From the NCBI GenBank assembly GCA_902512765.1, contig CABXKF010000006.1, positions 1-32,954 of the forward strand: a stretch of 32,954 bases of DNA. The letters are read 5' to 3'. The notes under the pieces were generated by a model. It saw only the letters and a list, made by a program, of their open reading frames with translations, had not been told where the DNA came from and made no database searches. The position numbers were made by a program, and so were the translations under genes. Source of the DNA: an uncultured Pelagibacteraceae bacterium (GTDB taxonomy: Bacteria > Pseudomonadota > Alphaproteobacteria > Pelagibacterales > Pelagibacteraceae). This document shows, in pieces, positions 1-20,653 of the stretch. Each line of letters opens with the position of its first letter. The stretch's first letter is position 1.

Positions 1-1
1 T

Positions 2-751: not shown

Positions 752-795
752 TAATGACAATTAATCATGCATTGATAAATTTAGATATAGTACCG

Positions 796-823
796 TTGTC
801 CAAAATGGGTTGACTCATATAAT
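796..823 (+). promoter_or_regulatory. probable sigma-70 promoter of the regulator gene
   Basis: A perfect -10 hexamer TATAAT lies at 818-823 with TTGTCC at 796-801 as the -35 candidate, 16 bp apart. The -35 sits inside operator copy 1, and the predicted transcription start (about 830) falls in operator copy 2, so a protein bound to both would block polymerase. The leader would be only about 24 bases. Confidence 0.55.
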
Positions 824-842
824 CATATTGTCCAAAATGGGT
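796..842 (+). repeat. tandem 15-bp direct repeat, probable operator pair
   Basis: The 15-base sequence TTGTCCAAAATGGGT occurs twice, at 796-810 and 828-842, identical and in the same orientation, 32 bp apart (about three helical turns). The second copy ends 11 bases before the ATG of the regulator gene at 854. I saw no further exact copy in the window. Position and spacing suggest binding sites for the regulator encoded next to it. Confidence 0.8.
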
Positions 843-853
843 CTTATAAATAT

Positions 854-2657: not shown

Positions 2658-2730
2658 TAATAGTTTTTATATAGAAGTTCCTTTTATTAGCAAATTTAAT
2701 TAAACCACAAATTGAAAATCTGTCATAACT

Positions 2731-2759
2731 TTGAAATAAATAGTGACAAACCTTATTAA
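2731..2759 (+). promoter_or_regulatory. candidate promoter of the AfuA/FbpA-type ABC operon
   Basis: TTGAAA at 2731-2736 and TATTAA at 2754-2759 are separated by 17 bp, ahead of the binding-protein gene at 2801. The -10 matches consensus at four of six bases, which in AT-rich DNA is only moderate evidence. A GAGAGAGG ribosome-binding site follows just before the start codon. Confidence 0.35.
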
Positions 2760-2800
2760 TTCATACTAAATTTAAAAATATTAACTAGAGAGAGGACATA

Positions 2801-3838: not shown

Positions 3839-3850
3839 TATTAGGAATTA
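3825..3850 (+). promoter_or_regulatory. intercistronic stem-loop between binding protein and permease
   Basis: TAATTCCTA (3825-3833) pairs perfectly with TAGGAATTA (3842-3850), a 9-bp stem that spans the stop codon and ends right before the permease ATG at 3851. A G-U pair could extend it inward. No T-run follows, so full termination is unlikely. A structure here could hold back 3' decay or permease translation, leaving more binding protein than permease. Confidence 0.6.
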
Positions 3851-6049: not shown

Positions 6050-7104
6050 TGAAAAAAGCTGAAGTAAAATTTGAAAATATTACAAAAAAATTTAATGAAA
6101 CTGTGGCTGTAGATAATGTCAGCTGTAGTTTTGAAGCTGGAACTTTAACAACATTGCTTGGTCCATCAGGATGTGGAAAAACTACATCATTAAGAATAAT
6201 TGCTGGATTAGAAAGAGCAACAGAAGGAAAAATATTAGTTGATAATGAAGATGTTACCCTGCTGCCAGCAACTGACAGAGATGTTTCAATGGTATTTCAA
6301 TCTTATGCCTTATTCCCACACATGAGTGTTATAGAAAATGTTTCTTATGGGTTAAAAATGATCAATGTAAATAAAGAGGAATATATTGAAAAAGCTTTAG
6401 AAACTTTAAAACTAGTAAATCTAGAGGGATACGAAAAAAGAATGCCTTCTGAGTTGTCTGGAGGACAACAACAAAGAGTAGCAGTTGCAAGAGCAATTGT
6501 ATTAAAACCTAAAGTATTATTATTTGATGAACCTCTTTCAAATTTAGATGCAAAACTAAGACGACAAGTTCGTGAAGATATAAGAGAAATTCAACAAAAA
6601 CTTGGAGTAACAACAATTTATGTAACACATGATCAGGAAGAAGCTTTAGCAATATCAGATAAAGTTATAGTTATGAATAAAGCTGTAATTGCTCAAGAAG
6701 GAAGTCCAAAAGATCTTTATAACTTTCCAAAAAATAAATTTGTAGCTAATTTTATTGGTGATGCAAATGTAGTTAAAGCTGAAATAATAAATAAACAATC
6801 AAATATTTATGAATTAAAATTAGCAGAGATAAAAGTAAAAATAGAAAGTGATAATGATTTTAATAAAACTGTTTCTGTGGCCTTAAGACCTGAGAAAATT
6901 AAAATTGATAGAGTTGATAACAAGAATTGTATTCACGCAACGGTAAATAATGCTTCTTTTGTTGGTAGTAGCTACCAATATATTTTAAACTCTGAGATGG
7001 GTAAATTATACGTCATTGCTAATGACACAAATGATGTATTTGAAGTTGGTGAAAAAGTATTTTTAAGTCTTAATGAAAAAGATATTCGAGTTCTTAAAGA
7101 TTAG
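6049..7104 (+). CDS. ABC transporter ATPase, FbpC/AfuC type
   Basis: A 351-residue nucleotide-binding protein. Walker A is GPSGCGKTT (38-46), Q-loop in VFQSYALFPH (about 82-91), signature LSGGQ (136-140), Walker B VLLFDE (156-161), and the switch His194 in YVTHDQ. The C-terminal 110 residues form a TOBE-like domain (VALRPEKIKI, then a beta-rich tail), usual in this subfamily. It overlaps the permease by one base and is the last gene of the three-gene operon. Its 3' end overlaps the convergent epoxide hydrolase by 11 bases. Confidence 0.93.
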   Translation: MKKAEVKFENITKKFNETVAVDNVSCSFEAGTLTTLLGPSGCGKTTSLRIIAGLERATEGKILVDNEDVTLLPATDRDVSMVFQSYALFPHMSVIENVSYGLKMINVNKEEYIEKALETLKLVNLEGYEKRMPSELSGGQQQRVAVARAIVLKPKVLLFDEPLSNLDAKLRRQVREDIREIQQKLGVTTIYVTHDQEEALAISDKVIVMNKAVIAQEGSPKDLYNFPKNKFVANFIGDANVVKAEIINKQSNIYELKLAEIKVKIESDNDFNKTVSVALRPEKIKIDRVDNKNCIHATVNNASFVGSSYQYILNSEMGKLYVIANDTNDVFEVGEKVFLSLNEKDIRVLKD

Positions 7105-8275
7105 ATTGCCCACCCCTCTCATCATAAGGATCATATCTTAAACTTCTTAAGAATTTTCTTATGTCATTAACAAGTAGATCTGGTTTTTCTAAAGCTGCAA
7201 AGTGACCACCAGCTGACATTTCAGTCCATTGTTTGATATTAAATATTCTCTCAACATAAGATCTTGGTGGCCATTCAGACATTTCAGCAGGAAATATTGC
7301 TGCAGCTGTTGGAATTTCTATTTTTTTAAAATTTTTTGGAAAAAATCTTCCACCCTCTTCTCTTCTTCCATAATAAATCCAAGTTGCTGTATCAAAAGTT
7401 TTGGTCAAAATATAAACCATGATATTTGCTAATAATTTATCTTTTGAATAGACACTTTCAATTTTGTTATCTTTTAAATCAGACCAAGCATGCATTTTTT
7501 CAATTATCCATGCAGCTACTCCGACTGGACTATCCATCATTCCGTAACTTAAAGTTTGGGGCTTTGTTGCTTGTTGTGTCCTATATCCATCTTGCATAAT
7601 TTGATCTTTATCAAATCTTATTTGCCAATCTTTTTCTTCAACAGACTGAGGACCATCTGGGTGACGCATAGTAAGACAATTTATATGAATTGCTTTACAA
7701 AAATTTGAATGATCATAACCAATCCAGTTTGCAATAGTTGCTCCCCAATCACCTCCTTGGGCTATGTAATTTTTATATTCAAGATTTTCCGTCATGAGTT
7801 TGTTAAATATTCCTGCCATTTTTCTTGGGCCAAGTGGTTTTGAAGGTTTGCTTGAAAAACCAAAGCCAGGTAATGAAGGAACGATTACGTCAAAAGAGTT
7901 TTTTTTATCTCCTCCAAACTTTTCAGGATGAGCAAGTTTTTCGATAATATCTAAAAATTCAACAACAGATCCTGGCCATCCATGCATTAACAATAATGGC
8001 GCAGAATTTGAGCTACTTCCTTTTTCTTTAATAAAATGAATTTCTTCTCCATCTACATTCGTAGTAAAGTTGGAAAATTTATTAAGTTCTAATTCGTGTT
8101 TGCCCCAATCAAAATCTTTAACCCAATAGTTACACAATTCTTTTAAATAACCTTTATTGGTTCCGTGATCCCAATTTTCTAAATTAGCTACAGAATCCCA
8201 CGGATAGTCTTTTACTTTTTGATAAATCAAAGATATTTCTTTTTTAGTAAAATTAATGTTGAATTCTTTAATCAT
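7094..8275 (-). CDS. epoxide hydrolase family protein (EHN plus alpha/beta hydrolase domains)
   Basis: A 393-residue protein of the microsomal/juvenile-hormone epoxide hydrolase type. The N-terminal EHN domain covers about residues 5-110 and the alpha/beta hydrolase core follows. Visible active-site elements are the oxyanion motif HGWPGS (98-103), the nucleophile Asp176 in GGDWG, lid tyrosines at 301-302, and the catalytic His358 in AGGHFAALEKP. An aspartate nucleophile rather than serine marks an epoxide hydrolase or dehalogenase, adding water through an ester intermediate. No signal peptide is visible, so it is probably cytoplasmic. It stands alone, convergent with the ABC operon and divergent from the acyltransferase gene. 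Substrate unknown. Confidence 0.9.
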   Translation of the reverse strand: MIKEFNINFTKKEISLIYQKVKDYPWDSVANLENWDHGTNKGYLKELCNYWVKDFDWGKHELELNKFSNFTTNVDGEEIHFIKEKGSSSNSAPLLLMHGWPGSVVEFLDIIEKLAHPEKFGGDKKNSFDVIVPSLPGFGFSSKPSKPLGPRKMAGIFNKLMTENLEYKNYIAQGGDWGATIANWIGYDHSNFCKAIHINCLTMRHPDGPQSVEEKDWQIRFDKDQIMQDGYRTQQATKPQTLSYGMMDSPVGVAAWIIEKMHAWSDLKDNKIESVYSKDKLLANIMVYILTKTFDTATWIYYGRREEGGRFFPKNFKKIEIPTAAAIFPAEMSEWPPRSYVERIFNIKQWTEMSAGGHFAALEKPDLLVNDIRKFLRSLRYDPYDERGGQSNL

Positions 8276-8346
8276 TTAATAAATTTAATATCTAAAATAA
8301 TAAAATCTACTATATACATTATAAAATTTAATTATAATCATTGTTT

Positions 8347-9258
8347 ATGCTTTCAAATAAAGAAATTATTTGTCCCAACAACTTGTTAGATGAAGCGCAT
8401 AAAAAAAAAGGTGTAAAAGTTGCTGTTGTTAATGCTGGTAAACCTTTACCCATGCTTTCTGTTCAAGATGCAGTAAATGAAAATTTAATTGAACCTATTT
8501 TTATAGGAGACAAAAAAGAAATTCTAAAATGTGCAGAGGATTTAAAATGGGATATTTCTCAGTATGAAATTATTGATGAACCTGTAGAAAATGCTACAGC
8601 AAAAATTGCAGCAAAACTTGCTAGCGAAGAAAAAGTAAAGATAATTGTTAAAGGTCATATTCACACAGATGTGTTAATGAAAGAAGTTTTAAAACGTGAA
8701 TATAATTTGTTAGGAAAAACCCGATTAAGTCATATCTGGCACATGACTGTTGAAAAAGATGGCAAACCTTTAATCATTACAGACGGTGCTTTAAATGTTT
8801 TACCCAATGTTAAAACAAAAATGCATATTCTCAAAAATGTAATTAATTTTTCTAATAGAATAGGAATATCTAGGCCAAAAGTTGCTGTTTTATCAGCTAC
8901 AGAAGAAGTTTTGGATAGTGTTCCAAGTTCTTTAGATGCTGCTGAATTAACAAAACTTGCAAAAGAAGAAAATTTAGAAGCTGATGTTTTTGGACCGTTA
9001 GCATTTGATAATAGTATTTCAAAAAAATCAGCTGCTATAAAAGGGATTAAAAATGTAGTAGCTGGAGAAGCTGATGTTTTGTTAGTTCCAAGTGTAGAAA
9101 CTGGAAATGGTTTAGTTAAAATGATGATTTATTTTATGGGTGCTTGTGCTGCTGGAGTTGTAGTTGGTGGTAAAGTTCCAGTTGTAATTACAAGCAGATC
9201 TGATGAAGCTCAAGCAAGACTAGCTTCTATTGCAGCAGCAGTAGTTGCCTTAGATTAA
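8347..9258 (+). CDS. phosphate acetyl/butyryltransferase family protein
   Basis: A 303-residue protein of the PTA/PTB family, which moves an acyl group between CoA and phosphate. Recognisable stretches are IVKGHIHTDVLMKEVL (about residue 94), LSHIWHM, ITDGALNVLPN, and the C-terminal GNGLVKMMIYFMGACAAGVVVGG phosphate/CoA-binding part, split here by the LVPSVETGNG segment. The length fits stand-alone family members without the MaoC domain found in some alphaproteobacterial fusions. I chose the ATG at 8347 over the TTG two codons upstream. No acetate kinase is visible beside it. The downstream neighbours are a 29-residue peptide and a HisD/HpsN-like dehydrogenase, so a role in making acetyl-CoA from acetyl phosphate in sulfonate breakdown is possible but unproven. 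Confidence 0.85.
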   Translation: MLSNKEIICPNNLLDEAHKKKGVKVAVVNAGKPLPMLSVQDAVNENLIEPIFIGDKKEILKCAEDLKWDISQYEIIDEPVENATAKIAAKLASEEKVKIIVKGHIHTDVLMKEVLKREYNLLGKTRLSHIWHMTVEKDGKPLIITDGALNVLPNVKTKMHILKNVINFSNRIGISRPKVAVLSATEEVLDSVPSSLDAAELTKLAKEENLEADVFGPLAFDNSISKKSAAIKGIKNVVAGEADVLLVPSVETGNGLVKMMIYFMGACAAGVVVGGKVPVVITSRSDEAQARLASIAAAVVALD

Positions 9259-9273
9259 TTCTAAATTAAATTT

Positions 9274-9363
9274 ATGAAACCAATCGATTATATAAGTCTA
9301 TATCTCTTAGTGATCATTCTTTGTGTGACTAGTGTAAATATGGCCTATAGATTTTATTTTTAA
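9274..9363 (+). CDS. putative 29-residue single-pass membrane peptide
   Basis: An ATG-to-TAA frame of 29 codons in the gap between the acyltransferase and the HisD-like gene, 15 bases after the former stops. It begins MKPIDYISLY, continues with one hydrophobic helix (LLVIILCVTSVNMAY) and ends RFYF. The layout (short N-terminus, one membrane helix, stop) is typical of small accessory membrane proteins. No strong ribosome-binding site is visible, and a frame of this length can occur by chance. Conservation in related genomes would decide. Confidence 0.4.
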   Translation: MKPIDYISLYLLVIILCVTSVNMAYRFYF

Positions 9364-9424
9364 ATCATTGAATAAAATTCATTTTTACTTTATTAAGATG
9401 TTCTTAAAACAAAGGAAATAATCA

Positions 9425-10711
9425 ATGGCAATACAATATTTAAAAAAATCACCAAAAACATCTTCAACAGACGATACAAAAACTAGAGGGATAGTTGAAG
9501 GAATTCTTAAAGACATAGAACAATCTAAAGAAGAAGGTTGTAAAGAACTTTCAAAAAAATTTGATAAATTTGAAGGTGATGTGGTTATTTCTAAGGAAAG
9601 AATTGAAGAAATTAAAAAAACATTAGATCAAAAAACTAAAGATGATGTTCAATTTGCTCATGAGAGAGTAAGAAAATTTGCTGAAGCACAATTAAAAAAC
9701 TATGGACAAGATTTTGAAGTTGAGCTTTCTGAAGGATTATTTGCAGGTCAAAGATTAATTCCTGTTAATACAGCTGGATGTTATGTTCCTGCTGGAAGAT
9801 ATGCTCATATTGCTTCTGCAGTTATGAGTGTAACAACTGCAAAAGTTGCAGGTGTAAAAAATATTCTAGTGTGTAGTTCTCCAAAACCTGGTGTAGGAGT
9901 TCACCCAACTATAGTTTATACAGCTGACCTTTGTGGTGCAGATGTAATTATGAATTTAGGTGGTGTTCAAGCAATAGCAGCTATGACAAATGGATTATTT
10001 AACAATGCACCAGCAGATATAATAGTTGGTCCTGGTAATCAGTTTGTAGCTGAAGCTAAAAGAATACTATTTGGAAAAGTTGGAATTGATTTATTTGCAG
10101 GTCCTACAGAGATAGCTGTAATAGCAGATGAAACTGCTGATCCTGAAATTGTTGCTGTAGATTTAGTTGGTCAAGCTGAACACGGCTATAATTCTCCTGC
10201 TTGGTTATACACAACAAGTAAAGAATTAGCTGAAAAAGTGATGAAAAGAGTTCCTGAATTGATTGCTGAATTACCAGAACTTCCAAGAACTAATGCTGAT
10301 GCAGCTTGGAGAGATTATGGTGAAGTAGTTCTTTGTGATACAGACGAAGAAATGGCTTCTATTAGTGACGAGTATGCTCCTGAACACTTAGAGGTCCAAA
10401 CAAAAAATTTAGAATGGTTTCATAAAAGATTAAAAAATTATGGATCTTTGTTCATTGGTGAAGAAACAACAGTTGCTTATGGTGATAAATGTTCTGGAAC
10501 AAACCATATTTTACCTACTAAAGGTGCCGGAAGATATACAGGTGGTTTGTTTGTTGGAAAATTTATTAAAACTCTAAGTTTTCAAAGAATGACCAAAGAA
10601 TCTACTGAATTAGTTGGTGCGGCTGCTGCTAGACTTTCCAGATATGAAGGAATGGAAGCGCACGCAAGAACTGGTGATGTGAGACTTAAAAAATACGGTT
10701 ATTCTAATTAG
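9425..10711 (+). CDS. histidinol dehydrogenase-family protein, probably HpsN-like sulfopropanediol dehydrogenase
   Basis: A 428-residue NAD-dependent dehydrogenase of the HisD fold. Residues matching the E. coli HisD zinc and catalytic set are present: Gln250 and His253 (GQAEHG), Glu320-His321 (YAPEHLEV), Asp354, His361 (GTNHILPT) and His413. Several parts differ from true HisD: EHGYNSPAWLYTT after the zinc site, and the stretch around residues 354-383 reading GDKCSGTNH then GAGRYTGGLFVGKFIKT. These resemble, from memory, the HpsN group that oxidises 2,3-dihydroxypropanesulfonate to sulfolactate. No his genes are nearby, also against a histidine role. An AAGGAA ribosome-binding site precedes the ATG. 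The 3' end overlaps the convergent ATPase gene by 4 bases. Confidence 0.75.
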   Translation: MAIQYLKKSPKTSSTDDTKTRGIVEGILKDIEQSKEEGCKELSKKFDKFEGDVVISKERIEEIKKTLDQKTKDDVQFAHERVRKFAEAQLKNYGQDFEVELSEGLFAGQRLIPVNTAGCYVPAGRYAHIASAVMSVTTAKVAGVKNILVCSSPKPGVGVHPTIVYTADLCGADVIMNLGGVQAIAAMTNGLFNNAPADIIVGPGNQFVAEAKRILFGKVGIDLFAGPTEIAVIADETADPEIVAVDLVGQAEHGYNSPAWLYTTSKELAEKVMKRVPELIAELPELPRTNADAAWRDYGEVVLCDTDEEMASISDEYAPEHLEVQTKNLEWFHKRLKNYGSLFIGEETTVAYGDKCSGTNHILPTKGAGRYTGGLFVGKFIKTLSFQRMTKESTELVGAAAARLSRYEGMEAHARTGDVRLKKYGYSN

Positions 10712-11763
10712 GATTTAACTCTTTTACCATTTTCATCAAAAACGAAAATATCTTTTGAGTTAAAGCCGATACTATTTTCAATAGAGTGATGGCTTGGAAT
10801 TTTTGCACTGATTTCGTATTGATCCATTTTGATATAGGCTATTTTTTCATTACCTAAATTTTCAATTAAATCTACTTTTGGATTAAACTTGTATTCACTA
10901 TTTTCTGAAACACTCAAATGTTCGGGCCTTAAACCCAAATAATAGTCTTTTTTAGAAAAATTTATTCCATCAATTTTAATTGAATTTCCTAAAAATTTAA
11001 TTTCGTTATTTGAAATAATATTATCAGCTGTAATTTTTAAAATATTCATTTTTGGAGTTCCAATAAATTGGGCGACAAAAATATTTGAAGGATTGCTGTA
11101 TATTTCATCTGGTGTTCCAACTTGTTCAATATTTCCATGATTTAAGATAACTATCCTGTCAGCTAAAGTCATAGCCTCAACTTGATCATGTGTTACATAA
11201 ATCATATTTGTTTTTATTTGATTGTGAAGTTTTGAAATCTCAACCCTCATTTCAGCTCTTAACGCAGCATCAAGATTTGATAGCGGCTCATCAAATAAGA
11301 ATATTTTTGGATTTCTTGTAATAGCTCTTCCAATAGCAACTCTTTGTCTTTGTCCACCAGAAAGTTGTTTAGGTTTTCTCTCTAATAATTCTTCAATTTT
11401 TAAAATTTTGGCAGCTTGCATAACTTTTTGTTCAATTTCCTCTTTAGGTCTTTTTTCAATTTTTAGACCAAAAGACATATTTTCATAAACATTCATATGT
11501 GGATATAAAGCATAAGATTGAAAAACCATTGCAGTCTCTCTTTTTGATGGATGTAATTCATTAACTAATTGATCATTAATAAATATCTCCCCTTCATCAA
11601 TTTGCTCCAGACCAGCGATCATTCTTAATAAAGTAGATTTTCCACAACCTGAAGGTCCAACTAAAACTAAAAATTCATCTTCTTTACCCTCAAGATTAAA
11701 ATTATTTATAATTTTATTAGTTCCAAATGATTTGTGAATATTAGTAAATTTTATATTAGACAT
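10708..11763 (-). CDS. sugar-type ABC transporter ATPase (MalK/UgpC/MsmX family)
   Basis: A 351-residue ATPase: Walker A GPSGCGKST (36-44), Q-loop in VFQSYALYPH, signature LSGGQ (134-138), Walker B IFLFDE (154-159), His192 in YVTHDQ, and a C-terminal OB/TOBE region containing LGLRPEHLSV. This is the ATPase type that serves MalFG-like permeases. No other such ATPase is in the window, so it very likely energises the binding protein and two permeases at 16722-19904, although encoded apart from them on the other strand. It overlaps the upstream SnoaL-like gene by one base (TAATG), tying the transporter to that enzyme. Confidence 0.9.
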   Translation of the reverse strand: MSNIKFTNIHKSFGTNKIINNFNLEGKEDEFLVLVGPSGCGKSTLLRMIAGLEQIDEGEIFINDQLVNELHPSKRETAMVFQSYALYPHMNVYENMSFGLKIEKRPKEEIEQKVMQAAKILKIEELLERKPKQLSGGQRQRVAIGRAITRNPKIFLFDEPLSNLDAALRAEMRVEISKLHNQIKTNMIYVTHDQVEAMTLADRIVILNHGNIEQVGTPDEIYSNPSNIFVAQFIGTPKMNILKITADNIISNNEIKFLGNSIKIDGINFSKKDYYLGLRPEHLSVSENSEYKFNPKVDLIENLGNEKIAYIKMDQYEISAKIPSHHSIENSIGFNSKDIFVFDENGKRVKS

Positions 11764-12851
11764 TATAATTTTTTAATTAGTTCAAAAATATCAACACCAA
11801 TTTGGTTTAAAATATGAGCTATGTCAATTGGAACCCAATTCTCTCTTATCTTTCCTTCATCATGATGATAAAAATCCATTACTCTCATTGTAACATTTTT
11901 ATTGTTAGCAGGATATCCTAACCAATCATTTGAACCATAAGTTGCTTGAATACTGTGCCATCCTGCAGTTAAGGAAAACTTTCCATCTCCTAGTTCAGAA
12001 TAATGACCTAGTTTCCAGTAATTTCTTTCTTTGAAAGTTTTTCTAAAAGGAAGTTGATGATTATCCACAAAACCTTCTAAAGATCTTGCGGTCCCTATCC
12101 CACTTGGTCCATACCAAATCATTTTATCATGCCAAAACTCTGCTTGTGGATGATTAATTAGTTTTAATTTTAAATCTTCATCTGAATTTGTATCTAGTTC
12201 AGGTTTAATATTTAAACTTCTTTGCATGATCAAAGCTTGTTCTAAATTTAATTTAGAAATATTGATATCTTTTTCAAAGTAATTTACCCCATCAGTATTT
12301 ATGGGATTTAACCAATTGCCTTCAGCTCCTCTAGATTTATTAATTGGAAAAACTCCTGTTTGAAAGATTAAGTCGATAACATCTATTAAGATATGGCTTT
12401 CTACTATTTTATCATTTTTAAGTTCATGTATTTCACAACATCTTAAATTAACCATTTTATTATTTGGTTTTATTCCCAACCAACTTTTTTTAAAAATTCC
12501 AGAAAGTGTAGATATAGAAGCAACTTGTATTTTATCTCTAAAAGCTCCTCCAATTATTAGTTGTGTTCTTCTTTCTAGATCAGGAAAAGACTCGAATAAT
12601 GGTAACCAGTAATCATCTTTAAATTTATCAAGACCACTAAACTCATTAACAGGGTGAAAACAATTAACCTTAATATCTTTTGCAAAATATTTGTTTAAAT
12701 TATCATCTAACTTAGATTTTCCAGAATGAACTATATCTGTTAAATAATTTTTTACTTTTTGTTTGTTTTTATAATTTTCTTCAGGGGTAATAATAATATT
12801 TTCTACGTCTTCTTGCCCTTTAAGTCCTGTGTCAAAATTTTCAATTTTCAT
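11763..12851 (-). CDS. double SnoaL-like (NTF2-fold) domain protein
   Basis: A 362-residue protein read from the ATG at 12851; the longer open frame upstream runs antisense into the divergent cupin gene and is rejected. Two NTF2-like halves are visible, about residues 25-190 and 195-360, each with the pattern of an N-terminal helical part, a FPDLERR or equivalent strand, and a C-terminal strand ending in a WVPIDIAH or HILIDVIDL helix. SnoaL-fold proteins include cyclases, isomerases and hydrolases acting on small, often cyclic compounds; there is no general catalytic motif, so the reaction cannot be named. A related double-domain protein lies across the divergent promoter at 13836. It is co-transcribed with the ABC ATPase. 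Confidence 0.75.
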   Translation of the reverse strand: MKIENFDTGLKGQEDVENIIITPEENYKNKQKVKNYLTDIVHSGKSKLDDNLNKYFAKDIKVNCFHPVNEFSGLDKFKDDYWLPLFESFPDLERRTQLIIGGAFRDKIQVASISTLSGIFKKSWLGIKPNNKMVNLRCCEIHELKNDKIVESHILIDVIDLIFQTGVFPINKSRGAEGNWLNPINTDGVNYFEKDINISKLNLEQALIMQRSLNIKPELDTNSDEDLKLKLINHPQAEFWHDKMIWYGPSGIGTARSLEGFVDNHQLPFRKTFKERNYWKLGHYSELGDGKFSLTAGWHSIQATYGSNDWLGYPANNKNVTMRVMDFYHHDEGKIRENWVPIDIAHILNQIGVDIFELIKKL

Positions 12852-12891
12852 ATATAAAACAGTTATATTTAATAAAAAGACAATAAATATT
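12852..12891. promoter_or_regulatory. 40-bp divergent intergenic region of the catabolic cluster
   Basis: Only 40 bp separate the start codons of the minus-strand SnoaL-like/ATPase pair and the plus-strand cupin-led operon. The stretch is almost pure A/T with TATA-like runs on both strands (such as TATAAA near 12853). It is too short for two separate promoters with normal leaders, so transcripts are either leaderless or start within the opposite coding region, and both arms could be controlled together. Confidence 0.45.
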
Positions 12892-13836
12892 ATGACTGAA
12901 AGAATTGCAAGATTTAATGAACTTACACCTAGCACATTACCTTTTGTTGAGGGAAGAATGGAAGGTCATAAAGAAAGAAAAAATTATTCAATTGTAGGTC
13001 CGGGTGTCGCAGAAGATAGTAATCAGTCTGTTAAAATTTCTAAACCTCATGGTTACAATCTTGGTGCAGTTAGCGCTAACCCTAAAAATGGTTCAGGGCT
13101 ACACAGTCACACAACAGCTGAAGTATTTTTAATCTATTCAGGTAAATGGAGATTCTATTGGGGTGCAGATGGTAAAAATGAAATAATTTTAAGTAAAGGG
13201 GATATTGTTTCAATGCCAACTAATATGTTTAGAGGTTTTGAAAACGCTGGTAATGAAGAAGGTTTAATTTTTGTAATATTGGGAAATGATGACCCTGGAA
13301 TAATCACTTGGGTTCCTAATGTTTTGATTAAAGCAAAAGAAACTGGATTGGCTTTGCTAGATGACAATTCTTTGATTGATTTAAATGAAAGTGAAATACC
13401 TCAAAACAGAAAACTTTTAGAGCCAATCACAAATGAAAAGCTTAAAGAATTTGATAACTATGAAATAGATGAAATTGATAAGTTTGTTTATAAGTTTAAA
13501 GATCATATTAATCATGAAACTATTCTAAATAATGAAATTAAATTAATTCAAATTATAGGTAATAATTTTTGTAAAAAATCCTATAATCCTTTAATTAATC
13601 ATACCACTGGTTTTAATTACAGTATTCTAAAAGCCAAAAAAGGGTTTGTAGAAGATTTAATCTTTGAGAAACCAACTATTTTATTTTCACAAAAAGGAAC
13701 TTGGAAAGTTAAAATTGAAAAAGATGAATTTGATATTAATTCAAAAGATACTTTTTCCCTTCCGTTAAATACTAAAGTTAGTATTTCTATTGATAATAAT
13801 GAAGAATGTTTTTTAAATTGTGTTAGTAAAGCTTAA
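12892..13836 (+). CDS. cupin-domain protein
   Basis: A 314-residue protein read from the ATG at 12892; upstream in-frame sequence is antisense to the divergent gene. Cupin motif 1 is clear: His71, His73 and Glu77 in GLHSHTTAEVFLIYSG. In motif 2 (GDIVSMPTNMFRGFEN, 103-118) the position that usually holds the fourth metal ligand His is Arg114. The C-terminal half (about 200-314) looks like a second, degenerate cupin barrel without metal ligands. Cupins include dioxygenases, isomerases and binding proteins; the function here is unknown. It is the first gene of the plus-strand operon and overlaps the next gene by one base. Confidence 0.8.
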   Translation: MTERIARFNELTPSTLPFVEGRMEGHKERKNYSIVGPGVAEDSNQSVKISKPHGYNLGAVSANPKNGSGLHSHTTAEVFLIYSGKWRFYWGADGKNEIILSKGDIVSMPTNMFRGFENAGNEEGLIFVILGNDDPGIITWVPNVLIKAKETGLALLDDNSLIDLNESEIPQNRKLLEPITNEKLKEFDNYEIDEIDKFVYKFKDHINHETILNNEIKLIQIIGNNFCKKSYNPLINHTTGFNYSILKAKKGFVEDLIFEKPTILFSQKGTWKVKIEKDEFDINSKDTFSLPLNTKVSISIDNNEECFLNCVSKA

Positions 13837-14810
13837 TGAAGGGCTTTGATAAAAAATATAAAGATTTTCCAGACTATATTTTAAAAATTACTAAACAGAT
13901 TTGGGAAGGAAAAGATGTGGATTCAATTGGTGAATTTTATACTGATGATATTCCAGTTAGGTCTCCTTTTGGAATAACTTATGGTAACAAACCTGTTATA
14001 GAGGCAACTTATAATACCCTAAAAGAATTTCCAAATAGACAATTACTTGGTGAAGACGTTATCTGGAATGGAAATGATATTAACGGCTATCATTCCTCAC
14101 ATAGGATTTTAAGCAAAGGAACACATTTAGGAGATGGATTTTATGGCAAACCAACTGGTAAAGATATTTATTATAGAGTAATAGCAGATTGTGCTTGTAA
14201 GGGTAATCAAGTGTACGATGAATGGATTGTAAGAGATCAAGGAGCAATGGTAAGACAAATTGGTTATACTCCAAAAGAATTTGCTCAAATAATGATTGAT
14301 AAGGAGGGTGGATTAGCAAAAGCTAAAAAACTTTTTGATAAAAATGATATAAAGCCATCAGATTATCAACCAGAGAAAATAAAAAAAGACTCTGCGGGTC
14401 AAAAATATTCAGAAATATTATGTAAAGTTTTTGAAGAAGGTTACGATTTTAACGATTACAATAGAGCTTCCAGTATTTATTGGCCAGGAAACAAATTGGG
14501 TCATGGAAGAGAAGATATTTCAAAATTTTGGAACTCTTTAAAAGATATTTTTACTGATATCAAATTCACTATTGAACATGTTGGATATTTAAATGAGTCT
14601 AACAAAAACCCAAGGGCATCAATTAGATGGTTTTTAGAAGGATTTCATTCAAATGATAGTAAAGACTATGGTAAAAAAACAAACTCTAAATTATTTATTA
14701 TGGGAATAAATCATGTAGAATTAAATCAAGATGGGATTATAAGAGAATGGGTTTTGTTTGATGAGGTTGCAATATGGAAACAAATTCTAATAAATAATTA
14801 TTTAAAGTAG
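13836..14810 (+). CDS. second double SnoaL-like (NTF2-fold) domain protein
   Basis: A 324-residue protein with two NTF2-like halves, about residues 8-165 and 190-324. Typical patterns are IWEGKDVDSIGEFYTDDI at the start of the first half, and in the second half GREDISKFWNSLKDIFTDIK and a final strand IIREWVLFDEVAIWKQI. It resembles proteins often annotated as ester cyclase or nuclear transport factor 2 family, without direct evidence of that reaction. It overlaps the cupin gene by one base and is followed after 6 bases by the Rossmann-fold gene. With the gene at 11763 it makes four SnoaL-like domains in one cluster; the two proteins might form one mixed complex or act in sequence. Confidence 0.75.
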   Translation: MKGFDKKYKDFPDYILKITKQIWEGKDVDSIGEFYTDDIPVRSPFGITYGNKPVIEATYNTLKEFPNRQLLGEDVIWNGNDINGYHSSHRILSKGTHLGDGFYGKPTGKDIYYRVIADCACKGNQVYDEWIVRDQGAMVRQIGYTPKEFAQIMIDKEGGLAKAKKLFDKNDIKPSDYQPEKIKKDSAGQKYSEILCKVFEEGYDFNDYNRASSIYWPGNKLGHGREDISKFWNSLKDIFTDIKFTIEHVGYLNESNKNPRASIRWFLEGFHSNDSKDYGKKTNSKLFIMGINHVELNQDGIIREWVLFDEVAIWKQILINNYLK

Positions 14811-14816
14811 TGATAA

Positions 14817-15485
14817 ATGAAATTATCTAAAAAAGTTTTGGTAATTGGAGCATCGGGTGGATCTGGAAGAAAAACTGTTGAAGCATTGATTGAAGAAGGT
14901 CATCAAGTAACTGCTCTGTCCAGAAGCGCGTCCAAAGTATTTGGAAAAGATATTAGAACAGTAGATGGTTCTGCTCTTGATAAAGATATTTTAAAAGTAG
15001 CGATGATGAATCAAGAAGTCATAATTATTACTCTGGGAATTACTGAAAACCCTTTACGAGTGAGATTTTTAGGCCCAACAAAGACTCCTTTAAATATAAG
15101 GAGTGAAGGTACCAGATTGGCTATTGAAATAATGAAGGAACTTAATATCAAAAGACTGCTTGTTCAAACTTCATATGGAACAGGCCCCTCTAAAAACATG
15201 CTTCGTTTTATAGAAAAGCTATTCTTTAAATTACTATTAAAACCTCAAATGGATGACACTGAAAAACAAGATAAATATATTAGAGAGAGTGGACTAGACT
15301 GGACAATCTCGCAACCAGTCCATCTGAATGATAATAATGAGTCTTCAAGTTCGTTATATACTTCAAATAATAATCAAGTTTCACAGTGGCAAGTCTCAAG
15401 ATACTTGGTAGGTAAGTTTTTGGCAAAAGCAATCTCAGATAGCTCAACTTTGATGCAAACAATCGCAGTATCTCAAAAAAAATAA
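14817..15485 (+). CDS. NAD(P)-binding Rossmann protein (NmrA/atypical SDR type)
   Basis: A 222-residue protein starting with a dinucleotide-binding motif, VLVIGASGGSGRKTVEALI (about 8-26), the GxxGxxG form of atypical short-chain dehydrogenases and NAD(P)H-binding proteins such as the NmrA/BVR-B group. The usual SDR YxxxK pair is not evident; a TSYGTG segment near residue 118 and WTISQPVHL near 161 fit the atypical group. It could reduce an intermediate of the surrounding pathway or act as a redox sensor. It sits 6 bases after the SnoaL-like gene and 5 bases before the methyltransferase gene, clearly in one operon. Confidence 0.8.
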   Translation: MKLSKKVLVIGASGGSGRKTVEALIEEGHQVTALSRSASKVFGKDIRTVDGSALDKDILKVAMMNQEVIIITLGITENPLRVRFLGPTKTPLNIRSEGTRLAIEIMKELNIKRLLVQTSYGTGPSKNMLRFIEKLFFKLLLKPQMDDTEKQDKYIRESGLDWTISQPVHLNDNNESSSSLYTSNNNQVSQWQVSRYLVGKFLAKAISDSSTLMQTIAVSQKK

Positions 15486-15490
15486 TTTAA

Positions 15491-16618
15491 ATGACTAAAA
15501 TTAAAACAACACATGTTGGAAGCTTACCAAGATCAGATGAGCTTTCTAATCTTCTATTTAAAAAAGATAAAAAAGAGAAAATAGATTTAGATAATTTTGA
15601 TGCGGTAGTTAAAAAAGATGTAAAAAAAATTGTAAAAAAACAAATTGATCTAGGTATTGATTTTATAAGTGATGGAGAAATGTCTAAGATTAGTTATGCA
15701 ACTTATGTAAAAGATAGAATAGATGGCTTTTCAGGTGAAAGTGAAAGAAAAGCTCCAAGAGATCTTGATGATTTTCCAACATTTAAGGAACGAATTGCTA
15801 GATCAGGTGGAACACCAACCTATACAAGACCATGTTGTACACATGAATTAAAGATTAAAGACACTTTATCTTTAACAAAGGATATCAACAACTTTAAAGA
15901 TGCGCTGAAAGAAAATAATCATAGTAATGCATTTATGAATGCAGCCTCCCCAGGTGTAATTTCAGCATTTTTACCAAATAAATTTTATAAAAATGATGAC
16001 GAATATTTGGAATCTTTGTCAAAACTTATGAAACAAGAATATGAAGAAATTGTTTCTAACGATATATATTTGCAATTAGATTGTCCTGACCTTGCTTTGG
16101 CAAGACATATGACATTTAAAGATTTGTCTGAAGAAGATTTTTTAAAAAGAGCAGAAAAACAAATTGAATTTTTAAATCAATCTATAAAAAATATTCCTCA
16201 ATCTAAAATTAGAATGCATATCTGCTGGGGTAATTATGAAGGACCGCATTCATATGATATTTCTTTAGATAAAATCTTACCTTTAATTTTAAAAGCAAAT
16301 GTTGGAACATATTTGCTAGAGTCATCAAACCCAAGACATTCTCATGAATGGCAGGCGTTTGAAGGTATTAAATTGCCTCAAGATAAAATTATAGCACCAG
16401 GTGTGATCGACTCTACTACTAACTTTATAGAACACCCAGAGGTTGTAAAAAATAGACTTATTCAGTTTTCAAAAGTAGTTAATAAAGATCAATTAATGGC
16501 AGGAACAGATTGTGGTTTCAGTACGTTTGCAGGTTTTGGAAATGTTGATGAAAACATAGTTTATAAGAAACTTGAGTCTTTAGTAATTGGCACAGAGCTT
16601 GCTTCTAAAGCTATTTAA
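15491..16618 (+). CDS. MetE-core family zinc methyltransferase (cobalamin-independent methionine synthase C-terminal type)
   Basis: A 375-residue protein matching only the C-terminal, catalytic barrel of MetE (full MetE is about 750 residues). The zinc set is complete: His243 and Cys245 (RMHICWGN), Glu277 (YLLESSN) and Cys341 (GTDCGFSTF). Other family marks are HVGSLPR (8-14), DFISDGE (57-63), QLDCPDLA and PGVIDSTT. Such stand-alone cores move a methyl or alkyl group to a thiol (homocysteine, coenzyme M or others); some are methionine synthases, others catabolic. Placement in a transporter-linked operon suggests it removes a methyl or alkyl group from the imported compound, but methionine synthesis cannot be excluded. 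Starts 5 bases after the Rossmann gene. Confidence 0.85.
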   Translation: MTKIKTTHVGSLPRSDELSNLLFKKDKKEKIDLDNFDAVVKKDVKKIVKKQIDLGIDFISDGEMSKISYATYVKDRIDGFSGESERKAPRDLDDFPTFKERIARSGGTPTYTRPCCTHELKIKDTLSLTKDINNFKDALKENNHSNAFMNAASPGVISAFLPNKFYKNDDEYLESLSKLMKQEYEEIVSNDIYLQLDCPDLALARHMTFKDLSEEDFLKRAEKQIEFLNQSIKNIPQSKIRMHICWGNYEGPHSYDISLDKILPLILKANVGTYLLESSNPRHSHEWQAFEGIKLPQDKIIAPGVIDSTTNFIEHPEVVKNRLIQFSKVVNKDQLMAGTDCGFSTFAGFGNVDENIVYKKLESLVIGTELASKAI

Positions 16619-16663
16619 TTTTTTACTTTGAAATTATCAAAAAAAACGACAAAATAGCTTTAT

Positions 16664-16681
16664 AAATACTTTCAAGTATTT
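16664..16681 (+). terminator. stem-loop after the methyltransferase gene
   Basis: AAATACT (16664-16670) and AGTATTT (16675-16681) form a 7-bp stem with loop TTCA, followed by TTTG. It lies in the 103-bp gap between the MetE-like gene and the binding-protein gene. It could be a weak terminator or attenuator, or a symmetric operator for the transporter genes; its A/T content makes a weak hairpin. Confidence 0.35.
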
Positions 16682-16721
16682 TGTAGGGTTTAAAGATTAA
16701 AATTATAGAAAGGTAATGAAT

Positions 16722-17942
16722 ATGAAAAAAATATTAATCGTATTATCATTTTTGCTATTTGGCACTTATGCTAATGCAGACTGTAATATTAAATCTGGAT
16801 CAATCAACATCTTAGCGAATGATTTTCCAGCATTAAGAACACTTGTTGATACAGCTAAAGAATGTAAAGGTAGTGCAGATTTTAAAGTAACACATTCAGC
16901 AGAGCACAATAAAATTGCTGTACCAGCGCTAACTGCTAATCCTTCAGAATTTTCTGTTAGAGTAGCAGCAAACAGTTCAATTGTTCCATTAATGAATGGT
17001 GATTTAATTAGACCTATGAATGATCTAGTTAAAAAATATGGAAAAGGCATTCAAGATTCTCAATTAATTACAATTGATGGAAAAGTTATGGCTGTTGCAT
17101 TTATGGCTAACACTCAGCATTTATATGTAAGAACGGATGTCTTAAAAGAAAACGGTATTGCAATTCCAAAAACTTATGAGGATGTTGTTGCAGCTTCTGA
17201 AAAAATTAGAGCAGCTGGAAAAATGAAATATCCTTATGCTGCAGCCTATAAAGCTGGCTGGAACTTAGCAGAAGAATTTGTAAACATGTATATTGGTCAT
17301 GGTGGTGAATTTTTTAAAGCTGGAACAGCAAAACCAAACATCAATAATGCTAAAGGTGTAGCGACTCTAAATATGCTAAAAAAATTAGCTGATTTGAGTA
17401 ATCCTGATTATTTAACACATGATAGTGAAGCAATTAAAGTAGAATGGGAAGCTGGAAATGTTGCCATTATGACTTTATGGGCTTCAAGATCTGGAACTCT
17501 TTTAGATGATGAAGGTGATGCTAAAATCACTGCTGCTACTAAGCTAGTTGCACCAGCAACTGTTGGTGGTGGAAACATTCCCGCTGCAACACTTTGGTGG
17601 GATGGATTTACACTTGCTAAAAATAGACCAGATGCAGATGCAGAAGCTTCTTTTAGAGCAATGGCTCATGCTGCTTCTTCAAAAGAAATGGTAGCAAAAG
17701 CTGCAGACCAAGCGGTTTGGTTAGTTGAAGGATTTGTTCCAGGACCAAAATCTGTTGGTGTAATTGAAGCAGTTAAAATGGGTGCAAAACCTTATCCAAT
17801 GTTACCTCAAATGGGACTAATGCACGGTGCCTTGGGTAATGAAATTGTTGAATTTTTGCAAGGAAATGAGTCAGCTGAACAAGCATTAAAAGATGTTGAA
17901 GCTGCTTATAATACTAAAGCAAAAGAACAAGGGTTCCTATAA
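16722..17942 (+). CDS. sugar-type ABC transporter substrate-binding protein
   Basis: A 406-residue binding protein with a signal peptide (MKKILIVLSFLLFGTYANA, cleavage before DCN). Of two in-frame ATGs, 16722 is preferred because AAAGG ends 8 bases before it, while it is only 2 bases from the ATG at 16716. The fold is the maltose/glycerol-phosphate binding (family 1) type, with LYVRTDVLKENGIAIPKTYE and a C-terminal ALKDVEAAYN pattern. Many aromatic residues (ATLWWDGFTL near residue 290) could stack on a ring-shaped ligand. Start of the transporter part of the cluster; a strong hairpin separates it from the permease genes. Ligand unknown. Confidence 0.9.
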   Translation: MKKILIVLSFLLFGTYANADCNIKSGSINILANDFPALRTLVDTAKECKGSADFKVTHSAEHNKIAVPALTANPSEFSVRVAANSSIVPLMNGDLIRPMNDLVKKYGKGIQDSQLITIDGKVMAVAFMANTQHLYVRTDVLKENGIAIPKTYEDVVAASEKIRAAGKMKYPYAAAYKAGWNLAEEFVNMYIGHGGEFFKAGTAKPNINNAKGVATLNMLKKLADLSNPDYLTHDSEAIKVEWEAGNVAIMTLWASRSGTLLDDEGDAKITAATKLVAPATVGGGNIPAATLWWDGFTLAKNRPDADAEASFRAMAHAASSKEMVAKAADQAVWLVEGFVPGPKSVGVIEAVKMGAKPYPMLPQMGLMHGALGNEIVEFLQGNESAEQALKDVEAAYNTKAKEQGFL

Positions 17943-17955
17943 TATCTAAGTATCT

Positions 17956-17982
17956 TTAAGTGGGGATTTATTCCCCACTTAA
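17956..17982 (+). promoter_or_regulatory. strong stem-loop between binding-protein and permease genes
   Basis: The arms 17956-17966 and 17972-17982 form a perfect 11-bp stem, with GTGGGGA pairing to TCCCCAC at the core and the five-base loop TTTAT. The GC core stands out in this A/T-rich DNA. It sits 14 bases after the stop codon and is followed by AACTAAAATT, not a T-run, so it is better read as a 3'-end stabiliser or partial terminator that keeps binding-protein mRNA above permease mRNA. Confidence 0.8.
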
Positions 17983-17991
17983 CTAAAATTC

Positions 17992-19020
17992 ATGCCTAAT
18001 AAAAGTTTTTTTTGGTTTTTTATACCAACTGGTTTAGCAATGATTTTATTCATTGGTTTACCTATTATATCAACTGGTGTTCAGTCTTTTTATGCTCAAC
18101 ACGATCAGATTTTAAAAGAAGTTAAAAAATGTGATCCATTTGGCTGCAAGGTTTCAGTACAAATTGATCAAGAGGCTACTTCAAAAATTAGGGAAGAAAA
18201 GCCACTTGGAAAATTTAATGGTTTTGGAACTTATGTAGACAGAAATCATTTAGCGACTGACCAATTGTCTAATTTTTGGAATGAGAGTAACTCAGCTGGA
18301 GAATTTTTATCTAAAGTAGGTAATCTGCCTTTTTATAAAGCGTTAATTTTTACTTTTACTTATTGTATTATTGTTACACCATGTGTTCTTTTATTAGGAT
18401 TTGTTATTGCCCTTAGTCTAAATTCAATTTCAAGGAAAATAAGAGGTGCTTTAATCTTTGGTACAATTTTACCAATGATAGTAACTCCATTAGTTGGTTC
18501 TTTAGTTTTATTTTGGATGGTAGATGCAGAAGGAATTATTGGAGCAAACTTACAACTATTGATGAATGATCCCTATCTATCAGTCAAATCTTCTAAAACA
18601 CTTACTTGGATCACAATTATTATTTATGGTATTTGGCATCACTCCCCTTTTGCCTTTGTAGTATTCTATGCAGCTTTACAAACAGTTCCTCAGGAACCGT
18701 TAGAAGCTTCAATTATTGATGGTGCTTCAAGATTTCAGAGAGTTAAGCATATTGTTTTACCTCATATTTATCCTGTCGTAACATTTGTAGCTTTAATTTC
18801 TTTAATGGATAACTTTAGAGTATTTGAACCTATCATTGGTTTTAGCGCCCAGGGTAGTGCTCAATCATTGTCTTGGTTGATATATGATAATTTAGTTAAC
18901 GAAGAGGTTATTTTATTTGGCTCAGCAGCTGCAACTTCAATAATGACAATAATTGGAATAGCAATAATACTAACGCCAGTTTTAATAAGAACTTGGAGAG
19001 AATTTAGAACAAATAGATAA
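17992..19020 (+). CDS. sugar-type ABC transporter permease, MalF-like
   Basis: A 342-residue inner-membrane protein. The first membrane helix (about 7-30) is followed by a periplasmic insertion (about 33-112) holding two cysteines, Cys47 and Cys52 in KKCDPFGCKV, placed to form a disulfide. Five further helices follow, with the EAA loop at 238-259 (EASIIDGASRFQRVKHIVLP) for the ATPase. Part of the importer with the binding protein, the MalG-like permease 2 bases downstream, and the distant ATPase at 10708. No clear ribosome-binding site is seen between the hairpin and the start. Confidence 0.9.
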   Translation: MPNKSFFWFFIPTGLAMILFIGLPIISTGVQSFYAQHDQILKEVKKCDPFGCKVSVQIDQEATSKIREEKPLGKFNGFGTYVDRNHLATDQLSNFWNESNSAGEFLSKVGNLPFYKALIFTFTYCIIVTPCVLLLGFVIALSLNSISRKIRGALIFGTILPMIVTPLVGSLVLFWMVDAEGIIGANLQLLMNDPYLSVKSSKTLTWITIIIYGIWHHSPFAFVVFYAALQTVPQEPLEASIIDGASRFQRVKHIVLPHIYPVVTFVALISLMDNFRVFEPIIGFSAQGSAQSLSWLIYDNLVNEEVILFGSAAATSIMTIIGIAIILTPVLIRTWREFRTNR

Positions 19021-19022
19021 TC

Positions 19023-19904
19023 ATGGATTACGGATTAGATAAAAAATCAAATAGTTTAAAAACCTTCAATACTATGTTTATAGTTGTTTGGTTATTGATA
19101 GCATGTTTTCCATTTATTTGGACTTTTTGGGGTTCTTTTAAAGTAAGAGCAGACTTTTTTTCAAGAGCTGATTGGTGGTATGCAATAACAGCTTTCAACA
19201 CATTATTAGAAACTGGTAAAAGTTTTACAACTGAAGCTTATAGTGGTGCATGGTTTGAAGGTGAGTTTTGGAAAGCATCAAGAAATACGATAATAGTAAC
19301 TGTAAGTGTAGTTTCTGTCTCTTTGTTTCTTGGAACCTTAGGAGCTTACGCTTTATCAAGATCTACAAAAAATTATGCATTTTGGATTTTAATTATTGCA
19401 TTAGTATTTAGAGCTATGCCTCATATAACTTTAGTTTCTGGATACTTATTTCCTTTTTTTCAATTACAAATTTGGGGAATTCTACCTACAACAATTGTAG
19501 TGTTAATAGCAATTAATCAACCATTTACACTTTGGCTACTTTACTCTTTTTTTAAAACTGTTCCAAAAGAACTTGACGAAAGTGCACTAATAGATGGGTG
19601 TACATACTTTCAAACATTCAGACATATAATTATGCCTGTGATGTGGCCAGGAGTTATAACAGCTGGATTATTTAGTTTAATGCTAGCATATAACGATTTT
19701 ACTGTGACAGCCTTATTACTTAATCAAGAAAATCATACAATGGTTCCTAAAATTCAGAGTTACCTTGGAACCAATCAACATGAGGGTAATTTGATGTGGG
19801 CAGTTTCAGCAGTAGTTTCTGCTACAGCACCTTTATTCTTATTGGTAATGTTTTTTCAAAAACAAGTAATAAGTGGATTAACAGCGGGCGCTGTAAAAGG
19901 TTAA
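19023..19904 (+). CDS. sugar-type ABC transporter permease, MalG-like
   Basis: A 293-residue inner-membrane protein with six predicted helices. The first is at about 17-38, followed by a periplasmic stretch rich in tryptophan (ADWWYAITAF to FEGEFWKASRN), and the EAA loop is at 183-205 (ELDESALIDGCTYFQTFRHI). It pairs with the MalF-like subunit 2 bases upstream. It ends the plus-strand operon, with a 4-base overlap with the convergent alpha/beta hydrolase and no terminator hairpin. Confidence 0.9.
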   Translation: MDYGLDKKSNSLKTFNTMFIVVWLLIACFPFIWTFWGSFKVRADFFSRADWWYAITAFNTLLETGKSFTTEAYSGAWFEGEFWKASRNTIIVTVSVVSVSLFLGTLGAYALSRSTKNYAFWILIIALVFRAMPHITLVSGYLFPFFQLQIWGILPTTIVVLIAINQPFTLWLLYSFFKTVPKELDESALIDGCTYFQTFRHIIMPVMWPGVITAGLFSLMLAYNDFTVTALLLNQENHTMVPKIQSYLGTNQHEGNLMWAVSAVVSATAPLFLLVMFFQKQVISGLTAGAVKG

Positions 19905-20653
19905 TTAACAAAATCTTTAATTAAATTATTAAATTTATCTGGTTCTTCAAGATGCACGTTATGACTACAATCTTTAAAGATTTCTAATCTACTATTTTTA
20001 ATTTTTTTGTTAAGTGTATCAACTTGATCAAAATTATATGAGGTATCTTTATCACCCCAAACTATTAATGTTTGATTTTTAATATTCTTTAAATCATCTA
20101 TTCCTGACCAATTTTGCATTGCTTTAAGTGCATTATCAGCAGTCTCTAGAGAAACATTTTTAACTGCATTTGCACATAAATAATAATTTTTATCCTGGTC
20201 ACCTTTTACAAACCATTTTTGTGGCACTCTTGAAAATGAAATTTCTACCCCATCGTCTTTAAGTTTTCTTCTAGTTTCGTCAATTGGTTCAAACCTTCCA
20301 GGTATTTCACCGATGGATCCAGTTGCAAAACAAATTAATTTATTAACTCTATTACCAGCAATTTTAGTTATTTCTTGAACTATCATTCCACCCATTGAAT
20401 GACCAAGTAAATTAAATTTATCTATTTTTTTTTCATCTATTATATTAATTACAAACTTGGCCATTTTATTAATTGAGTCTAATGATTGGACACCACTACT
20501 CTCACCAAATCCAGGTAAGGCTGGTGAAATTACTCTACAAAAGTTTGAAAAAAAATTTCTTTGATTACACCACATTTCAGATGAGCCTAAATAACCATGA
20601 ACTAATACTAAAGGATATCCCTCACCTACATCATCTATATAAATTTTACTCAT
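19901..20653 (-). CDS. alpha/beta hydrolase
   Basis: A 250-residue hydrolase with the full triad visible: nucleophile Ser86 in GHSMGG, acid Asp201 or Asp203 in WGDKDTSY, and His231 in CSHNVHLEEP; the oxyanion region is HGYLGSS (19-25). Family members of this size include esterases, lactonases and C-C bond hydrolases; the substrate is unknown. By spacing it is the last gene of the minus-strand proX-proV-proW-lysE run (5 bases after the LysE gene), although its tail overlaps the sugar-type permease by 4 bases. Confidence 0.85.
   Translation of the reverse strand: MSKIYIDDVGEGYPLVLVHGYLGSSEMWCNQRNFFSNFCRVISPALPGFGESSGVQSLDSINKMAKFVINIIDEKKIDKFNLLGHSMGGMIVQEITKIAGNRVNKLICFATGSIGEIPGRFEPIDETRRKLKDDGVEISFSRVPQKWFVKGDQDKNYYLCANAVKNVSLETADNALKAMQNWSGIDDLKNIKNQTLIVWGDKDTSYNFDQVDTLNKKIKNSRLEIFKDCSHNVHLEEPDKFNNLIKDFVN

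Follow-up and report, generated by a model that had tools for sequence, protein, structure and literature searches.

Four families of core methionine synthases, MesA to MesD, consist of the catalytic domain of MetE alone. Price and colleagues report that they keep the zinc and homocysteine residues and that MesD requires MesX (DUF1852) and oxygen (PMC7857596). Importers of the CUT1 family (MalE3, UgpABCE, SmoF type) combine one binding protein, two permeases and a UgpC/MalK-like ATPase. SnoaL, IdmH and AclR are polyketide cyclases with the NTF2 fold, and HpsN is a sulfopropanediol dehydrogenase that belongs to the catabolism of 2,3-dihydroxypropane-1-sulfonate (DHPS). Here, we describe a gene cluster of the SAR11 group that resembles parts of all these systems. 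It lies at positions 10708 to 19904 of contig CABXKF010000006.1 from an uncultured Pelagibacteraceae bacterium (assembly GCA_902512765.1). This whole contig of 32,954 nucleotides is hereafter called the window; its genome comprises 904 kb (61% complete, guanine-cytosine content 31%). With high confidence, we regard the cluster as the stripped SAR11 form of a real and widely shared catabolic pathway that is undescribed as far as our searches of the open literature show. The first-pass annotation, made from the letters of the window, also knew of no pathway with this gene set, and we found none among the matches listed from the open literature.

Gene calls and Pfam matches bear out the positions that the annotation had given for the importer and enzyme genes. 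They also agree with its four SnoaL-like domains, as two proteins each have two PF07366 stretches above the gathering score, and with the one-base overlap between the ATPase and the first SnoaL-like gene, which share base 11763. The features are as follows:

10708..11763, minus strand: ATPase of an ATP-binding cassette (ABC) importer, UgpC/MalK type (PF00005, E 1.6e-34; NF008653 UgpC, 464 bits, cut-off 432)
11763..12851, minus strand: SnoaL-A, tandem SnoaL/NTF2-like protein (PF07366, E 3.5e-22, two stretches)
12852..12891, no strand: divergent gap of 40 bases between the two arms (from the sequence)
12892..13836, plus strand: two-part cupin protein (PF07883, E 2.4e-8; begins at ATG 12892)
13836..14810, plus strand: SnoaL-B, second tandem SnoaL/NTF2-like protein, used as the cluster marker (PF07366, two stretches)
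14817..15485, plus strand: NAD(P)-binding (NAD_binding_10) Rossmann protein (PF13460, E 2.1e-33)
15491..16618, plus strand: MetE-like protein, MetE catalytic domain only (Meth_synt_2, PF01717)
16716..17942, plus strand: extracellular solute-binding protein, carbohydrate type (SBP_bac_1, PF01547)
17992..19020, plus strand: ABC permease 1, UgpA/MalF type (BPD_transp_1, PF00528)
19023..19904, plus strand: ABC permease 2, UgpE/MalG type (BPD_transp_1, PF00528)
9425..10711, plus strand: HpsN-type sulfopropanediol dehydrogenase, a neighbour outside the set (best PDB match 8v35)

The gene set is conserved in SAR11 far beyond chance. With SnoaL-B as query, genome contigs yielded at least 571 relatives, and the best 80, all titled Pelagibacteraceae or Pelagibacter, were examined. 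SnoaL-A and permease 2 are each present in 74 of these 80 loci, some of which are cut by contig ends, and the order counts rest on the 68 loci that contain both. In all 68, the same seven genes occur in the same order: SnoaL-A, cupin, SnoaL-B, MetE-like, binding protein, permease, permease. Hence, the annotated gene set stands as a unit for these seven genes, but not for the NAD(P)-binding gene, which has no homologue in the 80 other SAR11 loci. SnoaL-B directly abuts the MetE-like gene in all 78 of the 80 loci that contain both; thus, the Rossmann gene of the window is a local insertion. The idea that the importer is complete only with both arms fails in 22 of the 68 loci, where no ATPase adjoins SnoaL-A (it does in the other 46). 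The closest ATPases elsewhere in four such genomes are 55–57% identical.

As for the window itself, the matches of the ATPase to OB_MalK and TOBE_2 fall under their cut-offs. The open reading frame of SnoaL-A extends to a GTG at 12935, but relatives conserve a start at the ATG that ends at 12851. The gap between the arms had been called a divergent promoter of 40 bases. Its length is correct, but no sigma-70-like match lies inside 12852–12891, and the 46 such matches across 10600–20000 are at chance level (47.8 expected in shuffles). SnoaL-B of the window is up to 97% identical to named Pelagibacteraceae single-cell proteins and 96% identical to a protein on a 1.32-Mb contig of 'Candidatus Pelagibacter bacterium nBUS_32'. 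The single-cell matches lead us to assign the window to SAR11. The set is not universal in SAR11, because three single-contig genomes of the same genus (G012, G315, G401) are without the marker searched for. The MetE-like gene was found in 12 of 121 genomes sampled (the window genome and one end fragment counted); among the 24 genomes with a completeness of 90% or more, 3 have it.

Among the 68 loci, a HAD-like gene is present in 66 and an HpsN-like gene in 63. The HAD-like protein follows permease 2 (e.g., L022:14176-14835; 72 of the 80 loci L033–L112) and is not in the window. In about 70 of the 72 loci, GSIG[T/S] stands as its first motif, without the usual aspartates.

Related clusters are found in Roseobacters, Rhizobia, Vibrio, Deinococcus, Bacillota and one haloarchaeon, and SnoaL-B has 3830 relatives, paralogues included, at E <= 1e-30 in a database clustered at 90% identity. 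In 386 alphaproteobacterial genomes (window genome included), SnoaL-B occurs in 29 and the MetE-like protein in 73. Both occur together in 24 genomes, against 5.5 expected under independence without correction for kinship. The 22 top MetE-like scorers include 21 SnoaL-B carriers, and a score gap lies beneath them. The neighbourhoods were tallied in 26 of the 29 SnoaL-B genomes, leaving out the window genome and two with short contigs (G198, 3.2 kb; G202, 5.0 kb). Matches were counted down to E 1e-6, so that the transporter (permease, binding protein) and short-chain dehydrogenase/reductase (SDR) counts include some distant relatives. The tally gave cupin 25, SnoaL-B 24 (two genomes matched a paralogue better), HisD 22, permease 1 22, MetE-like 21, permease 2 21 and binding protein 20, followed by ATPase 19, LacI 19, SDR 18, single-domain SnoaL 17, alpha/beta hydrolase 14 and RraA 10. 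Searches of plasmids with SnoaL-A (23 records) and the MetE-like protein (112 records) gave clusters in Ruegeria, Marinovum, Octadecabacter, Rhizobium and the haloarchaeon Halobellus limi. In the first four genera, the cluster further encodes a HisD-family enzyme, a regulator of the LacI type, an alpha/beta hydrolase and an RraA-type protein; an SDR and further SnoaL proteins are present in most plasmid-borne bacterial clusters. The full cluster is carried by Ruegeria isolates. In Halobellus limi, four tandem SnoaL proteins and a single one are found with a MetE-like protein, an importer and an aldehyde dehydrogenase.

The annotation had suggested a co-occurrence check in other genomes, and overlapping families indeed recluster in the 26 alphaproteobacterial neighbourhoods and in distant phyla. 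It had further linked the transporter to the enzymes. This link holds, since the importer genes are found with those of the enzymes in many families, and the enzymes therefore probably act on the imported compound. The importer type varies among relatives between ABC and major facilitator superfamily.

The wider cluster is modular. No MetE-like gene is present in the related loci of Priestia, Deinococcus, Labrenzia, Sinorhizobium and Pantoea, which encode amidases or a C-N hydrolase, and an HpcH/HpaI aldolase replaces RraA in those of Priestia, Deinococcus and Pantoea. Two sets of loci were counted, in which several loci share one genome, contig ends truncate several and kinship is uncorrected. 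Of the 61 loci that encode a SnoaL protein, 35 carry the MetE-like gene only, 7 an amidase or C-N hydrolase only, 19 neither and none both (chance of zero overlap 0.0015). In 47 loci with SnoaL and HisD, 22 have RraA only, 11 HpcH only, 14 neither and none both; the amidase and HpcH references were partly drawn from the loci counted, and some HpcH matches are merely 28–33% identical. That RraA and HpcH never co-occur fits the exchange of one aldolase step and suggests that the pathway ends by splitting a 2-oxo acid. The split between MetE and amidase suggests that a methyl or amide group distinguishes the substrates.

Two further observations concern the contents of SnoaL clusters. In Ensifer NER9 (L222:11033-14386), the cluster includes otnK and a further aldolase, which may indicate a four-carbon sugar-acid product. 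An SBP56-type gene, of the methanethiol-oxidase family, lies near SnoaL clusters in three loci (L026:19963-21360, L118:11822-13219 and L243).

The SAR11 version is a stripped-down form of this wider cluster. In its nearest relatives outside SAR11 (L167, L171 and L175), a cluster-type HisD directly follows SnoaL-A; therefore, SAR11 probably lost it. The HisD-family protein of the window at 9425–10711 was tried as a cluster member and rejected, because it belongs to the HpsN branch and its gene runs convergently. Judged by its matches, it is closer to sulfopropanediol dehydrogenase (8v35, E 3e-162, 543 bits) than to histidinol dehydrogenase (best true HisD, 3e-71, 244 bits). It is 47–50% identical to four cluster-type HisD proteins, which form a separate branch. 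Hence, the likeness to DHPS catabolism is that the window has an HpsN-like neighbour and relatives carry a second HisD-family enzyme inside the cluster, but the latter is of another branch. Of the 11 SAR11 genomes that bear the cassette, 9 encode an HpcH-type aldolase elsewhere, 42–49% identical to that of Ensifer (one a contig-end fragment).

On the left, positions 1–10711 encode an Ldh_2 dehydrogenase fragment, an SBF transporter, an ABC importer, PTA_PTB and the HpsN-like dehydrogenase. This part resembles a DHPS/sulfolactate neighbourhood. Winged-helix matches at two places within 854–1819 mark a possible regulator, 43–47% identical in six other SAR11 loci.

The MetE-like protein has 375 residues and PF01717 as its sole domain, i.e., the catalytic part of MetE and no folate-binding domain. 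Residues S433, E484, D599, H641, C643 and C726 of E. coli MetE are aligned and identical in 10 of 10 MetE-like sequences. Glu665 was left unaligned by the program owing to an insertion and was matched by eye to the invariant E277. As the zinc and homocysteine residues of methionine synthase are kept, the methyl role that the annotation had assigned to this protein is reasonable. Identity is 20% to the E. coli MetE domain and 23% to the MesD of Vibrio pelagius, which was named by its DUF1852 neighbour and was the one member of MesA to MesD compared by sequence; the latter value is below the identity of well above 30% expected of a MesD. For MesD, a methyl-supplying partner is predicted (PMC7857596), and for the MetE-like protein such a partner is a guess of ours. 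The partner of MesD is DUF1852 (MesX), and those of the MetE-like protein would be the SnoaL-like and cupin proteins. A Pfam scan of 19 window proteins gave no DUF1852. As a separate observation, the MesD-like gene and DUF1852 of the Vibrio pelagius plasmid (L213:4011-6041) have sarcosine oxidase, purU and serine ammonia-lyase in their vicinity; an importer accompanied by four SnoaL proteins is encoded about 10 kb away. In the 11 cassette-bearing SAR11 genomes (61–95% complete), no MetE folate domain was found, and S-methyl_trans (BHMT-type) genes are present in 10.

The AlphaFold model of SnoaL-B (pLDDT 95) has two NTF2-like barrels, and its best single-domain matches are IdmH, ChaU, KstA15 and AclR (template-modelling (TM) score 0.7–0.8 by target length). 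Each half thus has the fold of the polyketide cyclases, but SnoaL-B has two domains per chain and is clustered with importers, and no polyketide synthase is annotated in the stretches read. In the cupin, H71, H73 and E77 are invariant, and Arg replaces the third histidine of the motif. The model of the binding protein (pLDDT 88) is best matched by MalE3 and by binders of the trehalose/maltose and SmoF (sulfoquinovosyl-glycerol) types. This fold of glycoside binders suggests a sugar, polyol or glycoside as the ligand. Unlike described CUT1 importers, the protein has low identity (14–18%) to the 50 solved structures among the matches listed, and the ATPase is often away from the cluster.

In our preferred, still tentative reading, the region represents, in its SAR11 version, a widespread cluster which probably imports a sugar- or polyol-like compound and is predicted to pass a methyl group from it to homocysteine. 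From the genes observed, their conserved order and spread, the predicted folds and the active-site residues that are kept, we infer the following steps. The binding protein would capture a glycoside or polyol. Both tandem SnoaL-like proteins and the cupin would then dehydrate, isomerise or open the compound, exposing a methyl group. The MetE-like protein would bind homocysteine via zinc and accept the methyl group to form methionine without a folate domain of its own. For this transfer from the imported compound, we see a chance slightly short of even. In the hypothesis of the annotation, the imported molecule would be methylated or alkylated, perhaps cyclic, and the MetE-like protein would dealkylate it. 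In relatives, an HpsN-like dehydrogenase, SDR, alpha/beta hydrolase and RraA- or HpcH-type aldolase would degrade the carbon skeleton to a 2-oxo acid. The SAR11 cluster would retain the first three steps, and the last would need enzymes elsewhere, e.g., the neighbouring HpsN and the HpcH-type aldolase on another contig.

A DesA/LigM-like protein (under the family cut-off) beside the Halobellus limi importer speaks for a methyl role. Several results weigh against the preferred reading. No cupin or HisD was matched in the Halobellus limi stretch, and its importer is of another type. The MetE-like gene occurs without SnoaL-B in 49 of its 73 alphaproteobacterial genomes and is absent from 26 of the 61 related loci, including the otherwise complete L031, L032 and L239. 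The 11 cassette-bearing SAR11 genomes, none of them complete, yielded neither RraA nor cluster-type HisD; hence, the full route is unreadable from SAR11 genes. In Phaeobacter, a 'Mes-like' knockout, which may concern another branch, is reported to have kept the lag shortening linked to dimethylsulfoniopropionate (PMC12366255). A reading in which SAR11 harvests the methyl group only was also considered; RraA was not found in the 11 genomes, but this reading is weakened by the HpcH-type aldolase in 9 of them.

In a more specific version, which we consider unlikely, the methyl group would come from an imported, O-methylated compound akin to a sugar or cyclitol, e.g., a mycosporine/gadusol-type sunscreen, and would be taken by a core methionine synthase of a fifth family. 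The tandem SnoaL-like and cupin enzymes would make this compound a methyl donor, giving SAR11 methionine without folate or B12. Mycosporine is kept as an example only, because many compounds would suit a binding protein of the carbohydrate type and amidases are frequent in clusters that lack the MetE-like gene. No title or abstract among the matches listed describes genes of mycosporine catabolism. Homarine, another candidate, was rejected, as nothing among the matches listed ties it to SnoaL genes.

The alternative that survives best, although we rate it as rather improbable, is a sugar or polyol pathway in which the MetE-like protein uses another donor (5-methyltetrahydrofolate or a one-carbon product) and is co-expressed because the pathway frees one-carbon units. 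Two sphingomonads carry MetE-like homologues (43 and 45%) together with folate one-carbon genes and a single SnoaL/NTF2 gene, which the homologues overlap (L113, L114). These operons, probably for aromatic O-demethylation, hold an aminomethyltransferase-family gene, a candidate LigM/DesA-type demethylase. The absence of the MetE-like gene from many related clusters also fits this alternative. The sphingomonad operons differ from the SAR11 cluster in their LigAB-type neighbours, and no carbohydrate ABC importer or tandem SnoaL is annotated there. The missing folate-binding domain and the position directly after SnoaL-B in the 78 SAR11 loci argue against this alternative.

Very unlikely, in our judgement, is a role of the MetE-like protein as a thiol alkyltransferase akin to epoxyalkane:coenzyme-M transferase, an enzyme of the same superfamily. 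It would trap an epoxide or other reactive intermediate on a thiol, and the SnoaL-like proteins would act like limonene-epoxide hydrolase. Compared over the whole chain, SnoaL-B has its best matches in Lsd19 and MonB, two tandem epoxide hydrolases, at a low TM score of 0.33–0.36 and a root-mean-square deviation >14, and limonene-epoxide hydrolase 5aii stands at rank 42 (TM 0.80 by its own length), but the higher-ranked single-domain matches are cyclases. Moreover, the residues gripping the amino acid part of homocysteine, needless for a coenzyme-M enzyme, are kept in 10 of 10 sequences. Import of an ordinary sugar beside unrelated enzymes held by synteny would suit the long-range gene order of SAR11, the likewise syntenic DHPS-type genes at the left and the differing importer types, but it is highly improbable and already disfavoured by cross-phylum recurrence, as overlapping families recluster in other orders in distant families, Vibrio, Deinococcus, Priestia and a haloarchaeon.

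SAR11 bacteria are among the most abundant cell groups of the surface ocean, and to our knowledge, many of their importers have no known ligand. With SnoaL-B in nBUS_32 and the full cluster in Ruegeria isolates, the question is open to testing. The ligand of the binding protein would identify a dissolved-carbon pool common to SAR11, Roseobacters and soil bacteria. If true, the transfer of a methyl group straight to homocysteine would be an additional route of methionine supply.

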